Part shown: positions 16,996 through 22,739 of the stretch, piece by piece
Layout of the letters: each line of letters starts with the position of its first letter
Numbering within the stretch: position 1 is the first letter of the stretch
Virus record (IMG/VR): IMGVR_UViG_3300010885_002980
Span: 1 to 31,786 of that record
DNA from: a virus
DNA: 31,786 bases
Direction: 5' to 3' (one strand)
Translations under genes and position numbers: made by a program
Notes under the pieces: generated by a model
Told to the model about the DNA's origin: nothing
Seen by the model: only the letters and a program-made list of their open reading frames with translations
The model's database searches: none

Positions 16996-17428
16996 TACTA
17001 ACGCCGAAATCATTGGTGATATCGGTGAAGTTGTCGTTCAAGAATTTTTCGATTCTACTCGAAGTATCTATAAGTACGACTCCGAGAAAGATGGTTACAT
17101 CAATGAAATGAAGTACGCCGTCAAAACGTTTCGGCTAAATAAATCGACACGCGGATTTTGGATGAGCGACAACTATACAAAGATTATGTGGAAGAATGTT
17201 GATTCAGTTCCCCTTCTATTTTTCATACGCGTACCTGAGACTGAGAATGATTTGGCTGAACTCTATTTGTCAGTAAATCATGTGAACTCTTATACGATGG
17301 TATCTACGAATAATGGAGTAAAGTGCCGAAATTATCCATTGACAAACTGTTTGAAAATTTGTAATATATCAGAAGACAGGTCTCGTGTATTGTACGAGAA
17401 CTCGATCAAACTCAGGAGAGTAGCGTGA
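16982..17428 (+). CDS. Hypothetical protein, possible nuclease-like fold
   Basis: 148 residues from the ATG at 16982 (or 16988); the same frame is open far upstream but lies within the two preceding genes. An N-terminal helix with GDIGEVVVQEFF followed by acidic residues, an E-x-K at 42-44 and VKTFR is loosely reminiscent of PD-(D/E)xK nucleases (Glu16, Asp37, Glu42, Lys44). The spacing is not convincing enough to name it. It ends with a GTGA overlap to the DUF1599-like gene. Confidence 0.55.
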   Translation: MTMSNTNAEIIGDIGEVVVQEFFDSTRSIYKYDSEKDGYINEMKYAVKTFRLNKSTRGFWMSDNYTKIMWKNVDSVPLLFFIRVPETENDLAELYLSVNHVNSYTMVSTNNGVKCRNYPLTNCLKICNISEDRSRVLYENSIKLRRVA

Positions 17429-17811
17429 AAGAATCAGTAAAAGTACTTCAAGAATGCATCGACCTACAACTCAAGAAGTCCCAAGACTATCAAAATCCAA
17501 ACTCAAACGTAGTTCAAGCCATGCACTATCGTCGTGGGGTAGATACGATCCACGATACCATGCAGGGTAAAATGTATCGTGCTCAGTCTCTTCTTGAGTC
17601 TGGCCGAGCTGATCAAGCAAACTTTGAGTCTCTTGAAGATACCTATAAAGATCTCATTAACTACGCTTCTTTCGCTGTATCTTGGCTCCGTGGTAAAATC
17701 GAAGGTCAAGATCCCGCGCGCGACATCTTTAATAATAAGTACGAGCCTAACCAGGATGCTAACCCAGATGCTAAGTCCATTTTCTTCTACGATGTGGATC
17801 GCAATAAATGA
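17425..17811 (+). CDS. DUF1599-like nucleotide-modification-associated protein
   Basis: 128 residues from a GTG overlapping the preceding stop. The pattern LKKSQDYQNPNSN, a central GKMYRAQSLLES, and ESLEDTYKDLINYASFAVSW fits the DUF1599 (nucleotide modification associated domain 1) family, an all-alpha family seen beside base-modifying enzymes in phages. It ends four bases into the dCMP hydroxymethylase gene, so the two are coupled; a role in handling modified deoxynucleotides is likely but not demonstrated. Confidence 0.65.
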   Translation: MKESVKVLQECIDLQLKKSQDYQNPNSNVVQAMHYRRGVDTIHDTMQGKMYRAQSLLESGRADQANFESLEDTYKDLINYASFAVSWLRGKIEGQDPARDIFNNKYEPNQDANPDAKSIFFYDVDRNK

Positions 17812-18455
17812 TGACACTTAATCAAATTCGTTTGTTCTTTAAGCAGCACTTAAAAGATGGCGTGTTTGTTAATGATAAATCAGGCGTTAAGATGCTTGAG
17901 ATCATGAATGCCAGTTTCATTGCAGATGAACCGACTATATTTGGCACCATTGATAAAAACTACATTCAACGAGAGTTGGAATGGTATGAGTCGATGTCTC
18001 TTAATGTTAACGATATTCCAGGTGGTCCTCCCGCTATCTGGCGACAGGTGGCAGACCCAAGTGGATATATCAACTCAAACTATGGTTGGTGTATTTGGTC
18101 GAAGGAAAATTCCTCACAATATAATAACGTAGTAAAAGAACTCAAGAAGAACCCTGAGTCTCGACGGGCTACGATGATCTATACACGACCAAATATGTGG
18201 AATGATTATAATGCTTTTGGGCGCAGCGATTTCATGTGCACAAACACCGTACAATATATGATCCGCGAGAATCGTCTTCACGCTCTAGTATACATGCGAT
18301 CAAACGATGTTGTGTTTGGGTATAAGAACGATTACGCTTGGCAGAAATATGTTTTGGGCTTGATGTGTGAAAGCCTGGGTTATGAGCCGGGACACATTTA
18401 TTGGAACGTTGCATCACTTCACGTATATGAAAGGCACTTTGATCTTGTCAAATAA
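17808..18455 (+). CDS. 42: Deoxycytidylate 5-hydroxymethylase gp42
   Basis: 215 residues, of the thymidylate synthase fold. It follows T4 gp42 closely: SFIADEPTIFGTIDKNYIQR, INSNYGWCIWS, RRATMIYTRPNM, the nucleophile Cys144 in DFMCTNTVQY, and RSNDVVFGYKNDYAWQKYV. In the last block Asp175 stands where thymidylate synthases have the dUMP-selecting Asn, the mark of a dCMP enzyme. It makes 5-hydroxymethyl-dCMP from dCMP with methylenetetrahydrofolate. The protein ends about 20 residues before the T4 C-terminus, right after the SLHVYERHF block. It overlaps the deaminase gene start. Confidence 0.93.
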   Translation: MMTLNQIRLFFKQHLKDGVFVNDKSGVKMLEIMNASFIADEPTIFGTIDKNYIQRELEWYESMSLNVNDIPGGPPAIWRQVADPSGYINSNYGWCIWSKENSSQYNNVVKELKKNPESRRATMIYTRPNMWNDYNAFGRSDFMCTNTVQYMIRENRLHALVYMRSNDVVFGYKNDYAWQKYVLGLMCESLGYEPGHIYWNVASLHVYERHFDLVK

Positions 18456-18903
18456 CTGGACACAAAACTATTTTAACCTAGCCAAGCAGGTATCGACTTG
18501 GTCTAAAGATCCGAGCACCCGAGTGGGTGCTGTTGCAGTAGGAGCTAGAGGCCAAATCCTTTCGCAAGGGTATAATGGCTTTCCTCGTGGAATTGATGAC
18601 AGTGACGTTAGGCTTAATGATCGAGAGCAAAAGTATAAGTATATTGTTCATGCTGAACAGAATTGTATATACAATGCAACACTGAATGGCGTAAGTCTAG
18701 CTGGTTCTGACCTGTATATCTGGGGACTACCTCTTTGTTCTGAATGCGCTAAAGGTGTTATTCAGGTCGGTGTTAAACGCGTATTCATGTGTTATCCTTC
18801 TTATGTAGATAACAAATGGAAAGACTCTTTTGAAACTACCAAAAATATGCTGAAAGAAGCTGGTGTTGAGTATATGTATTATGAAAATATCGAATTACGA
18901 TGA
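18427..18903 (+). CDS. cd: dCMP deaminase
   Basis: 158 residues from the ATG at 18427, which overlaps gp42 by 29 bases; TTG at 18445, with AAAGG upstream, is an alternative start. The zinc site is complete: HAEQN (His75, Glu77) and PLCSECAKG (Cys104, Cys107). DPSTRVGAVAVG is typical of the family. It converts dCMP to dUMP, feeding dTTP synthesis and balancing the pool that gp42 draws on. It is shorter than T4 Cd (193 residues). A 67-base gap follows, the largest within this cluster. Confidence 0.9.
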   Translation: MKGTLILSNNWTQNYFNLAKQVSTWSKDPSTRVGAVAVGARGQILSQGYNGFPRGIDDSDVRLNDREQKYKYIVHAEQNCIYNATLNGVSLAGSDLYIWGLPLCSECAKGVIQVGVKRVFMCYPSYVDNKWKDSFETTKNMLKEAGVEYMYYENIELR

Positions 18904-18970: not shown

Positions 18971-20203
18971 ATGAAAGTGGCTATCCTTATGGGGCGCGGC
19001 ATTGAAGGATGCGGCGTCTCAAAATTTACTATTGAGATGACAAAGTATCTAAAGAAGAACGGCCATGAATGTACAGTGATTGCTTCTAAAGATAAAACAT
19101 GGTCTCGTGTTAACTCACACGTCATGCCAAATCTCATGTACGTAAAATTTGCAGAAGATGTTAATATCGATAGTGTAGCAGACGCTTGCAACTCATGTGA
19201 TCTAGTGATCATTAACTCGCTTCCACCTTTCGCACATAAGAAGAATCAGAATTACGATCTTAAGGTTGCTGAAAACTTCCGTAAAATTCTCAATAAGATA
19301 TCCGCACCATCGGTGTTATTTCAACACGATCACAATAAGATCTCCATCATACGTAACGATTGTTTGAAAGAATCTATCGATAAATCTAAAGTTTTGTTTG
19401 CTCATTCTCCAACTGGTGATTTTGCTGGTGTAGTAGAGAGTATGTCTGAAGCTGGCGGCATCATGGGATTCTTTGGTGGAGATGCTCCAAAGAAGCAAAT
19501 CTTAAACTTCCAGCCTGGAATGTACTTCGATGAAGTTCGCGAGAAGTACTGGAAACCCATCGAACAAATCGATAAAATGTGTCATAGGTGGATTGGTCGA
19601 ATGGCTCTATGGAAGGGCCCACGATTGATGATGGACTTCCATGAGAAGCACTTACGCCAGATGAATGCACTCACGATTCTTGAGGGTATTGAGAAATCAC
19701 TAGCTTATGTTGAACTCAAGCAAAAGTATTCATTCCATTACTTAAACAATGTTAGTCCAGACAAGACTGACTTTACAGATTGGTACGGAAACAAACCAGT
19801 AGTTTTCTCATTCTTTAAAAACCATGAAATCCTTGAACGCATGTCTAAATCTGGATACGGGTATCAACTCTCTCTTCTAGATCCAAGGTTCATCGAAAAA
19901 TCAATTGAGTATACGCACTGTGAGGTTGTAGCTACTGGTACAATTCCAGTATTTCACCAAGGTTATGGTGATGCATGTACCCATCGAGTACTAGGTATAC
20001 CCTTGACAGAATGCGCAGATAGTGGTACTATCTGGCTATCTAGTGAGAACATGCAGCAATCTGCAGACTTGATATCCGCGCTAAATAAAGACGACGGGAT
20101 GCGTAACGAGTATCGCGAGAAAGCATACGAGTTCTATAAATCACACCAAGATGCAGATGCAGTCTTTGACAGCATATTCAATATGATCGGAAAAGTTAAG
20201 TGA
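18971..20203 (+). CDS. a-gt: DNA alpha-glucosyltransferase (AGT)
   Basis: 410 residues (T4 AGT: 400). The similarity to T4 AGT runs the whole length: ILMGRGIEGCGVSKFTIEMT at the start, CDLVIINSLPP, QHDHNKISIIRNDCL, RWIGRMALWKGPRLMMDFHE, ILERMSKSGYGYQLSLLD, and EYTHCEVVATGTIPVF near the C-terminus, with the closing KAYEFYKSHQD. AGT is a GT-B retaining enzyme that moves glucose from UDP-glucose to 5-hydroxymethylcytosine in phage DNA, protecting it from restriction. With gp42 nearby it makes a complete synthesis-plus-glucosylation pair. It overlaps the next gene by four bases (GTGA). Confidence 0.93.
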   Translation: MKVAILMGRGIEGCGVSKFTIEMTKYLKKNGHECTVIASKDKTWSRVNSHVMPNLMYVKFAEDVNIDSVADACNSCDLVIINSLPPFAHKKNQNYDLKVAENFRKILNKISAPSVLFQHDHNKISIIRNDCLKESIDKSKVLFAHSPTGDFAGVVESMSEAGGIMGFFGGDAPKKQILNFQPGMYFDEVREKYWKPIEQIDKMCHRWIGRMALWKGPRLMMDFHEKHLRQMNALTILEGIEKSLAYVELKQKYSFHYLNNVSPDKTDFTDWYGNKPVVFSFFKNHEILERMSKSGYGYQLSLLDPRFIEKSIEYTHCEVVATGTIPVFHQGYGDACTHRVLGIPLTECADSGTIWLSSENMQQSADLISALNKDDGMRNEYREKAYEFYKSHQDADAVFDSIFNMIGKVK

Positions 20204-21399
20204 AACACGCTACAATCGTACCACTTATCGGGGGTGAAACTCTTGCTTCTGAGAAAGCGTTTGGGTCTCGCCCTGAGTGGTTAGCTTCTTACGAACCTTT
20301 TCAGGCTAATGATAGACACATCGTTAATTACTATAATAATGAAGTGCCATATCACCTGATTGATCGTGGAGACTTTCCAAAGACTAAAGTCGATGTCATC
20401 AGTACCGTGTGTCCCTGTGCAGGTTTATCCCAATTGTCGCATGGCTTTGGAGATCACAATCCCAATAATAGATGGATGACTGAGACTGCAAACTACGTTC
20501 TCGGCGAGCTTAAACCTGAAGTGTTTTGGGGCGAGAATGCTCCTGGATTTGCTGGTAAAATCGGTGAAAACGTTCGCAACCAACTTCATCAGATTGGTTT
20601 AGATAATGGTTATAGTATGTCAGTATACCGTACGAGGTCGCTGCTTCATGGTGTAGCCCAAGTTCGCGAACGAGCTTTTTACTTCTTTTGGAGAGGTAAC
20701 AAAATTCCGGTGTTGAACTTCTATAAACGTGAACGCCCGACAATTGAAGACACGATTTTAGGCGTAACATCAAACTTTCAGATGGAACCTATCAATACGA
20801 AAACTCCATCGAAAGACGATCCATACTATCGGTTTATCCTCGAGCATATTCACGGTGGAATTACACACCGCGAATTCTGCAAAACTGTTGAACCAGCAAA
20901 AGCTCGTGGCCAAGATGTTTTATCATATATAGAAAGAATGGGAATTGATTACGATGAAGTAGCTAAATGGATGGGTAATAATGGATATACGAAAGAAGTC
21001 GACAGATGTAAAGGACGCAAAGCTAAATTAGCTGCAGGCGGAAATATCATGCGTCGAGGAACCATTGTTCCACGAGACTACATCGGTGCATTTGTCGGTC
21101 ACTATCCAATGATGCTGACGCACCCGATTGAAGACCGCTATATAACTTATAGGGAAGCGATGACTATTATGGGTCTTCCCCAAGATTTCGAATTGCTCGA
21201 TCCAAAGAAGAGCGTTAACCACATCTGTCAAAACGTACCAGTGAGCACCGCACATGACATGGCAACTGAAGTCCTACAATATCTCGAAGGAAAGCGCGAG
21301 CTTGTTGACGCAAGACTTGGATTCCAATATAACTTCTCAAGAACAAACGAATTCAATTACACAAAATCAGCTACAGCAGGACTCGAAGCTTTCTTCTAA
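20200..21399 (+). CDS. C5-cytosine methyltransferase-like protein with atypical motif I
   Basis: 399 residues from a GTG coupled to the AGT stop. C5-methyltransferase motifs are visible: motif IV STVCPCAGLS with the catalytic Cys of Pro-Cys at about residue 73, motif VI WGENAPGF at about 109-116, and motif VIII AQVRERAFYFFWR at about 152-164. The C-terminal part holds RYITYREAMTIMGLPQDF and QNVPVSTAHDMA, matching motifs IX-X. The AdoMet-binding motif I, normally DLFAGxGG, is replaced by IVPLIGGETLASEKAFG. The central region (about 185-285) would hold the target recognition domain. What it modifies in a phage predicted to carry hydroxymethylcytosine is unclear. Confidence 0.8.
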   Translation: MKHATIVPLIGGETLASEKAFGSRPEWLASYEPFQANDRHIVNYYNNEVPYHLIDRGDFPKTKVDVISTVCPCAGLSQLSHGFGDHNPNNRWMTETANYVLGELKPEVFWGENAPGFAGKIGENVRNQLHQIGLDNGYSMSVYRTRSLLHGVAQVRERAFYFFWRGNKIPVLNFYKRERPTIEDTILGVTSNFQMEPINTKTPSKDDPYYRFILEHIHGGITHREFCKTVEPAKARGQDVLSYIERMGIDYDEVAKWMGNNGYTKEVDRCKGRKAKLAAGGNIMRRGTIVPRDYIGAFVGHYPMMLTHPIEDRYITYREAMTIMGLPQDFELLDPKKSVNHICQNVPVSTAHDMATEVLQYLEGKRELVDARLGFQYNFSRTNEFNYTKSATAGLEAFF

Positions 21400-21682: not shown

Positions 21683-21870
21683 AAAAGCTTTTATCATATA
21701 TAAAGCAATCGGATGTCATAGTCACCTTATTTCTAAATCCTCTTAAGTGGTGGAAGATTTACGCATATAAGGTGACTGAAAGCCAATCTGATCCTGGACT
21801 AATACTAGATGCGGTACTCAGAGTGGGGCCGATTAAAATTTGTGTCTATATAGACGATGAAAGGTGGTAA
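21679..21870 (+). CDS. Small hypothetical protein
   Basis: 63 residues from a GTG overlapping the preceding stop (GTGA). Contains a hydrophobic N-terminal half (SDVIVTLFLNPLKWWKIYAY) and a beta-rich C-terminal half ending YIDDERW. No family recognised. Confidence 0.5.
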   Translation: MKKLLSYIKQSDVIVTLFLNPLKWWKIYAYKVTESQSDPGLILDAVLRVGPIKICVYIDDERW

Positions 21871-21872
21871 TA

Positions 21873-22739
21873 ATGGAAATCCAAATTAAAATCGAGGAAC
21901 TACAGAAGAAAAAGCTATTCGTAGCTACTCCAATGTATGGCGGGCAGTGTAATGGTTTGTACGCTCGGTCGATGTGTGACTTGACAGCTTTGTGTCTAAA
22001 GTACGGCATCGAAATGCGTTCGTATTTCCTGTTTAACGAATCGCTTATCACTCGCGCACGGAATTATTGTGTTGACGAATTCCTGCGTTCAGGTTATACT
22101 CATCTCTTGTTTGTTGACTCAGACATTGGATTTAATCCTCAAGACGTGCTTGCACTATTGGCCCTTCAGACCGACGAGTCTCCTTATGACATCATCGGTG
22201 GTGCTTATCCTAAGAAGTGTATCACTTGGGAAAAGATCAAGATGGCCGTTGACAAAGGTGTGGCTGACGAGAATCCATCTGTTCTTGAAGACTTTGTTGG
22301 TGACTTTGTTTTCAATCCGGTCATGGAGAATGGCGAAGGTTCAAAATCTATTCGTCTAGACGAACCTGCTGAAGTTCTTGAGATTGGTACGGGTTTCATG
22401 ATGATCCGGCGCGAAACTTTTGAAGAATATGCAAGGAAGTTCCCGCTTATCATGTATAAACCTGATCATGTACGTACAGCTGAGTTCGACGGCACACGTA
22501 AGATTGGCATGTATTTCCAAGCTGAAATTGATCCTGAGTCTGAGCGCTACCTGTCTGAAGATTATCTCTTCTGTCAGAATACCCGTAAAACCGGGATGAA
22601 AGTCTGGATGTGCCCATGGATGCACTTGCAACACGCAGGTTTCTATACCTTCGGCGGAAAGCTTTCAGCTCTAGCATCAATTGGTGCTTCTGCTACGGCC
22701 GATCCATCACAAATCGCATCTTCAAAAGTAAAGAAATAA
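21873..22739 (+). CDS. GT-A-type glycosyltransferase
   Basis: 288 residues from the ATG at 21873 preceded by AAAGGTGG; a GTG three codons upstream is possible. LFVATPMYGGQC at 15-26, NESLITRARN at 55-64, and the metal-binding DSD (82-84) within HLLFVDSDIGF mark a family-2-like GT-A fold. A second block EIGTGFMMIRRETF and YLSEDYLFC carries a likely catalytic Asp/Glu. The family is common in marine T4-like phages, including ones without hydroxymethylcytosine, so the acceptor may be a protein or a cell-surface sugar; here a second sugar on glucosyl-hydroxymethylcytosine is also possible. Confidence 0.75.
   Translation: MEIQIKIEELQKKKLFVATPMYGGQCNGLYARSMCDLTALCLKYGIEMRSYFLFNESLITRARNYCVDEFLRSGYTHLLFVDSDIGFNPQDVLALLALQTDESPYDIIGGAYPKKCITWEKIKMAVDKGVADENPSVLEDFVGDFVFNPVMENGEGSKSIRLDEPAEVLEIGTGFMMIRRETFEEYARKFPLIMYKPDHVRTAEFDGTRKIGMYFQAEIDPESERYLSEDYLFCQNTRKTGMKVWMCPWMHLQHAGFYTFGGKLSALASIGASATADPSQIASSKVKK

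Follow-up and report, generated by a model that had tools for sequence, protein, structure and literature searches.

A phage subfamily of C5-cytosine methyltransferase homologues with a remodelled donor pocket, linked to hydroxymethylcytosine cassettes

C5-cytosine methyltransferases (C5-MTases) are a textbook AdoMet family, and here we describe a large natural subfamily in which covalent catalysis is intact and the donor pocket, as read from alignments, is systematically rebuilt. Its tie to hydroxymethylcytosine (hmC) synthesis and to exchangeable genes for sugar addition or other hypermodification suggests that phage DNA chemistry has a layer not yet on record. The explanation we prefer, to which we give an even chance, is an active C5-MTase-fold enzyme that would act on cytosine or hmC of phage DNA with a non-canonical donor or reaction, as a constant member of the hmC hypermodification cassette. 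The C5-MTase fold and catalysis were already known; what is new, judged by alignment, is a subfamily that departs from the classical AdoMet-dependent definition at motifs I, II and X. A literature search, which was not exhaustive, found no published treatment of this subfamily or of its link to hmC cassettes.

By fold and catalytic motifs, the enzyme that we studied is a C5-MTase homologue. It is encoded in the window, the whole 31,786-nucleotide stretch analysed here, a 31.8 kb virus fragment with T4-like gene content (Table 1). The protein scores 65.7 bits against Pfam DNA_methylase (PF00145), above the curated cut-off of 22. The match begins only at residue 51, so motif I lies outside it. 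An AF2 model (mean pLDDT 87, pTM 0.87, motif IV loop 74–86 poorly modelled) matched M.HaeIII, M.HhaI, DNMT1 and MET1 in Foldseek at E 1e-11 to 1e-14, with a best E of 3.5e-14 at probability 1.00 and a TM-score to HhaI of about 0.56/0.67. DSSP on this model places the helices of an insert between motifs VIII and IX at residues 182 to 278.

The catalytic motifs are conventional and motif I is not. An earlier sequence-only reading had described the catalytic Pro-Cys, ENAPG and QVRER as intact, and all three are present at 20410-20430, 20533-20547 and 20659-20673. In motif IV, Ala takes the place of Q82 of M.HhaI. Residues V7-P8-L9-I10-G11-G12 pair without gaps with F18-A19-G20-L21-G22-G23 of M.HhaI in hhalign. 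Motif I, described in that reading as replaced, has lost F18 and G20 but keeps the last two glycines, so it is diverged rather than wholly replaced or deleted. Motif I was placed by hhalign to M.HhaI and motif X by ungapped HMMER alignment to M.HaeIII, the hhalign path there being wrong; motif II and III residues were placed by remote alignment and may be off by one or two columns.

Table 1. Features of the modification cassette and of the enzyme. Positions are those of the window unless a locus is named.
Feature	Position	Strand	Evidence
DUF1599 'nucleotide modification associated domain 1'-like protein, weak match	17425..17811	+	PF07659 E 1e-4, 23 bits (cut-off 25)
dCMP hydroxymethylase (T4 gp42 family), cytosine-type Asp in RSNDVVFGYKND	17808..18455	+	T4 gp42 1b49 E 1.1e-83
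dCMP deaminase	18448..18903	+	PF00383 63 bits
DNA alpha-glucosyltransferase (T4 AGT family), occupant of variable hypermodification slot	18971..20203	+	PF11440 247 bits; T4 AGT 1xv5 E 2.6e-86
GTGA overlap, 4 nt: enzyme GTG 20200-20202, AGT TGA 20201-20203	20200..20203	+	sequence
C5-cytosine methyltransferase-fold protein, remodelled donor pocket	20200..21399	+	399 aa, GTG start
Motif I variant V7-P-L-I-G-G12, replacing F-x-G-x-G-G	20218..20235	+	hhalign to M.HhaI
Motif II position S30-Y31, replacing ribose-binding E40 and W41 of M.HhaI	20287..20292	+	alignment
D55, possible stand-in for motif III D60, two columns off	20362..20364	+	conserved 92/99
Motif IV C71-P72-C73-A-G-L-S, catalytic Cys73	20410..20430	+	C73 99/99, A74 98/99
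Motif VI E112-N-A-P-G	20533..20547	+	E and N 99/99
Motif VIII Q154-V-R-E-R158	20659..20673	+	both R 99/99
Mostly helical insert, replacing canonical target-recognition domain	20743..21099	+	DSSP on AF2 model
Motif X variant I-C343-Q344-N345-V-P, replacing G303-N304-S305-V	21223..21252	+	C 98/98, Q 98/98
PF03167-like proteins	L016:1620-1979, L237:2567-2917, L288:5214-5654, L253:9014-9445

Across the family, the alignments indicate consistent rebuilding of the donor pocket. The comparison covered 99 distinct members and, as controls, 35 C5-MTases (30 from one bacterial phylum, four from phages, and CmoX). Counterparts of M.HhaI C81, S85, E119, N120, R163 and R165 occur in 100% of members and of controls. 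The controls also hold F18 (33/35), G20 (35/35), E/D40 (34/35), Q82 (33/35), G303 (33/33) and N304 (32/35), whereas 98–100% of the family replace F18 with V or I, G20 with L, E40 with S or T, Q82 with A, G303 with C and N304 with Q. Motif I thus reads V/I-P-L-I-G-G, its F and first G lost in 99/99. At the column of the acidic ribose-holding residue, at the end of strand 2, all 99 members carry S or T against E or D in 34 of 35 controls, in a remote alignment whose placement is not beyond doubt. Motif X, classically G-N-S/A, is C-Q-N in nearly all members, with S305 replaced too. The family keeps G22, G23 and P80, has an aromatic residue at the W41 position, and carries an invariant N37.

These substitutions do not depend on how the family was collected. 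Because the profile scan used motif I and X patterns, we repeated the count on 39 distinct proteins found without those patterns and on eight bacterial-bin proteins. The substitutions recur in both sets; the bacterial-bin count for motif X is not independent, that scan having itself used the motif X pattern. The enzymes of S-TIM54 and XG4 show them as well. Altered cofactor binding had been singled out from the window's sequence as the interesting option, and the alteration of motifs II and X, beyond motif I, is what it predicts. AdoMet could still bind, because D55 may replace D60 and N37 might bind ribose.

The motif I variant marks a large phage family that is under strong purifying selection. 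The IMG/VR profile scan with motif I and X patterns found at least 590 relatives and retained 80 of them, and a scan with patterns outside these motifs found 59 loci encoding the 39 distinct proteins. Bacterial bins held eight clear matches and one fragment, and INPHARED only eight records, comprising S-TIM5 group cyanophages, Pseudoalteromonas phage XG4 and Bacillus phage G. One Rhodobacteraceae bin (G010) carries the enzyme on three different contigs (L307, L312, L314), which are probably binned phages. Conservation of the variant within a phage subfamily, proposed earlier as a check, was borne out by L9, G11 and G12, invariant in 99/99 members. The same three residues are invariant in the 39 proteins retrieved independently of motifs I and X, and the bacterial-bin contigs agree, so chance or sequencing error does not explain the variant. 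Close pairs give a dN/dS of 0.04–0.06, indicating that the enzyme is being kept; together with the invariant active site, this rules out a pseudogene.

The enzyme travels with the dCMP hydroxymethylase of hmC cassettes. A gp42 homologue is present in 82 of the 84 enzyme loci that have more than 4 kb upstream, while gp42, AGT and dCMP deaminase are found in 0 of 80 CmoX loci used as a control, which answers the earlier question of co-occurrence with gp42 in the affirmative. All 105 gp42 homologues carry the cytosine-type Asp. MetaGPA identified this residue as marking modified-cytosine contigs (PMC8670742); a DNA methyltransferase domain goes unmentioned in the main text of that study. The two loci lacking a nearby gp42 are S-TIM54 and phage G, each with an Asp-type thymidylate-synthase (TS) homologue elsewhere in its record; such a homologue is encoded in all three distant lineages, S-TIM54, XG4 and phage G. 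The annotated ThyA of S-TIM54 (L001:5114-5956, minus strand) lies about 2 kb from the enzyme on the opposite strand and contains RSNDMATGVPLD. Its Asp at the position of Asn177 of E. coli thymidylate synthase suggests that it is probably a dCMP (hydroxy)methylase and not a thymidylate synthase. Phage G (L304, L306) has two TS homologues elsewhere in its genome, one Asp-type and one Asn-type.

In the reverse direction, 45 gp42 loci have 6 kb or more of downstream sequence; the enzyme is present in 24 of them and absent from 21. Among enzyme-free gp42 spans, L237 has no hypermodification gene between gp42 and the clamp, and several others carry a 'SHRAAQ' set. Since hydroxymethylase cassettes exist without it, the enzyme is an optional partner of hypermodification and not a requirement for hmC.

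Translational coupling is a constant of the family, and the coupled neighbour is not. The enzyme start overlaps the upstream stop or lies within 10 nt of it in 120 of 126 loci, a count that includes near-identical loci and is therefore not made up of independent cases throughout. At least eight unrelated families supply the gene directly upstream, among them AGT (36 loci), the GT-B-like protein phrog_14998 (24), UDP-galactopyranose mutase (21), phrog_13881 (19), GT4 glycosyltransferase (8) and a protein resembling UDP-glucose dehydrogenase (5). The fold of the phrog_14998 neighbour gave only a weak GT-B-like match (SenB E 7e-4, pLDDT 72). On the enzyme tree (n=92), the neighbour changes about 28 times, against a possible minimum of 11 and a shuffled mean of 59; this tree was built quickly and 24 of its branches are weak, so the change count is approximate. 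The window gene had been described as translationally coupled to the glucosyltransferase. The 4-nt overlap with AGT is there, but across the family the coupling is to whichever hypermodification gene fills the upstream slot.

A dedicated partnership with AGT is ruled out by the range of neighbours and by T4-like coliphages, which have AGT without the enzyme. A link to sugars only is weakened by the 19 loci in which the upstream gene encodes the non-Pfam 'SHRAAQ' protein (phrog_13881), whose family also occurs where the enzyme is absent. A constant enzyme beside exchanged neighbours suggests that the common denominator is hmC-DNA and not a particular sugar. Because the neighbour varies and the coupling does not, the target would be one common to all carrier phages, namely cytosine or hmC in DNA.

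The cassettes contain further genes of interest. The DUF1599-like gene is part of the conserved cassette and stays adjacent to gp42 in many loci, and the window enzyme is followed downstream by genes for a DUF3310 protein, a phrog_1574 protein, the sliding clamp and the clamp loader. The phrog_1574 protein (window 21864-22739) has weak glycosyltransferase similarity, and its gene is conserved between modification cassette and clamp in most loci, with a sugar gene or none. Many hmC cassettes encode a small uracil-DNA-glycosylase superfamily-like protein (PF03167, some below cut-off), adjoining the gene for dCMP deaminase or hydroxymethylase; the window cassette lacks such a gene. Four loci (L016:1954-4948, L018, L029, L048) pair UDP-galactopyranose mutase (GLF, 171 bits in L016) with the phrog_14998 protein, L016 and L048 also having an NAD-dependent sugar epimerase-like gene, and these cassettes predict a galactofuranosyl-type decoration of hmC DNA. 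Elsewhere (L035:1921-6001, L236:9408-12497, L248:2999-7073), three to four conserved genes without a Pfam match lie downstream of the hydroxymethylase, one near phrog_7093 'threonine dehydratase' and one phrog_13881; this set may constitute a further hypermodification pathway on hmC.

From sequence and context, we infer an active enzyme with DNA as its substrate and a donor other than AdoMet. Cytosine or hmC would be flipped out of the phage's own DNA, and Cys73 would add to C6, helped by Glu112 and Arg156/Arg158, as the invariant catalytic set suggests; retention of this covalent attack is very likely. Since the donor pocket appears rebuilt in a fixed way, the step after C6 attack would be something other than canonical AdoMet methylation. 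Most likely, a group from a non-canonical donor would pass to C5 of cytosines left unhydroxymethylated. That donor might be derived from AdoMet, following the CmoX precedent, or be a different one-carbon donor; the cassette yielded no enzyme, CmoA for example, that would make one. A reaction on hmC without AdoMet would be the second choice within this explanation. Sequence alone cannot separate host DNA, residual cytosine, RNA or another donor, and genomic context favours phage DNA as the target and a sugar-independent reaction. Among specific reactions, we favour a non-canonical donor on residual cytosine, then AdoMet methylation with a drifted pocket, then AdoMet-free hmC chemistry.

The alternative that survives best, though we think it rather unlikely, is an ordinary AdoMet-dependent 5mC methyltransferase whose pocket has merely drifted, and which would add a second layer of protection by methylating residual cytosines of the phage genome, or else DNA of the host or a competitor. 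It would account for the full C5-MTase fold and catalytic set and for the retained G22, G23 and P80, and the aromatic residue at the W41 position with the Asp at D55 could still hold adenine. Drift, however, would not fix replacements at G20, E40, G303 and N304 in 99 sequences when the controls are near-invariant there, and a 5mC activity would add little in phages that replace cytosine already at the nucleotide level.

AdoMet-free hmC chemistry as a distinct reading is improbable. The enzyme would strip hydroxymethyl groups as formaldehyde from selected sites, acting as an eraser that spares those sites from glycosylation, or it would use the covalent intermediate to put another nucleophile in place of the hydroxyl. 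C5-MTases are capable of such chemistry in vitro: without SAM they have been reported to dehydroxymethylate 5hmC, with loss as formaldehyde inferred for M.MpeI (PMC11347137), and M.HhaI makes hmC from formaldehyde while eM.SssI couples thiols to hmC (PMC7176277). Association with the hydroxymethylase independently of the sugar fits this reading, but a donor-free reaction would not require a strongly conserved, remodelled pocket.

Two further readings are far less probable. Translational coupling with the transferase gene could suggest a catalytically dead relative that helps the adjacent glycosyltransferase by binding DNA or flipping bases, yet Cys, Glu and both Arg are invariant in 99/99, the fixed pocket speaks against a dead enzyme, and a dedicated interaction partner would not easily tolerate exchange among neighbours of unrelated families. 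A DNMT2-type RNA m5C methyltransferase acting on tRNA or phage RNA is likewise very doubtful: PF00145 includes the tRNA-acting DNMT2, and RNA of an hmC phage has unmodified cytosine, but the structure and sequence matches listed are DNA enzymes with no DNMT2 among them, and the strict link to DNA-hypermodification genes would go unexplained.

Probably, the enzyme produces or edits an as yet undescribed modification of cytosine. It is conceivable, if on balance unlikely, that its DNA-level cytosine reaction is one not known in nature: a polymer-level hydroxymethylase or alkylase of residual cytosine with a non-AdoMet one-carbon donor (formaldehyde or a folate, for example), or an enzyme devoted to dehydroxymethylating or substituting hmC and so setting which bases become hypermodified. 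Should the donor or reaction prove new, cytosine marks could be written or edited with a new enzyme, and phage evasion of restriction and CRISPR would gain a new player. Among phages in culture, XG4, S-TIM5 and phage G carry the enzyme. The first interpretation of this gene thus holds for the subfamily, its gp42 association and cofactor-site changes reaching beyond motif I, and gives way on two points, the surviving GG of motif I and a coupling that is not specific to AGT.

Known systems each share part of this arrangement. T4 has the same hydroxymethylase and alpha-glucosyltransferase families as the window, and since tblastn gave no match to the enzyme in any T4-like coliphage record, the enzyme is not needed for hmC glucosylation in T4. 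Bacterial C5-MTases such as M.HhaI and M.HaeIII (PF00145) share the fold, motif order, Pro-Cys nucleophile, E-N, Q-x-R-x-R and motif X region. Relative to M.HhaI, the family has F18, G20, E40, Q82, G303, N304 and S305 replaced; relative to both, the window enzyme has a mostly helical insert for the usual recognition domain and sits in an hmC hypermodification context.

CmoX, the DNA cytosine C5-carboxymethyltransferase of Synechococcus phage S-B43 (PDB 8yf3), uses carboxy-SAM and not SAM and has Arg at the N304 position (PMC12783734). In its crystal structure, F25, E47, D69 and R350 (N304 in HhaI) surround carboxy-SAM, and R350 decides the donor (PMC12783734). Like the family, CmoX is a phage C5-MTase homologue in a DNA hypermodification cluster, changed at the N304 position that sets its donor choice. 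CmoX keeps F25, E47 and D69 for adenine and ribose, whereas the family lacks the F and E and has Gln in place of the CmoX-type Arg (98/98). The family motif is VCPC/TCPC and not the CmoX-type SPPC, the 80 CmoX loci are without hydroxymethylase, AGT and dCMP deaminase, and neither CmoA nor CmoY is among the cassette genes run through Pfam, a search confined to the cassettes. The missing Arg and the genomic context rule out that the enzyme is CmoX.

The closest counterparts come from cultured phages. The DNA cytosine methyltransferase gp301 of Bacillus phage G is the best viral fold match (TMq 0.77) and has Gln at N304; an AGT gene (gp306) lies about 3 kb from it, and the phage also encodes an Asp-type TS homologue. 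It differs in its 25% identity, its motif I of F-I-F-G-G-S and the E kept at the aligned E40 column. Two TS homologues, one of them Asp-type, and an AGT homologue near a C5-MTase suggest that cytosine in phage G DNA may bear sugars. Vibrio phages 1.161.O and ICP1, found by tblastn from phage G, were rejected as relatives for their normal F-x-G-x-G and lack of Gln in motif X. The 'DNA methyase' of the cyanophage S-TIM5 group and its homologue in Pseudoalteromonas phage XG4 are cultured-phage members of the subfamily, sharing PLVGG/PLIGG, Ser at the E40 position and QNVP at about 32% identity.
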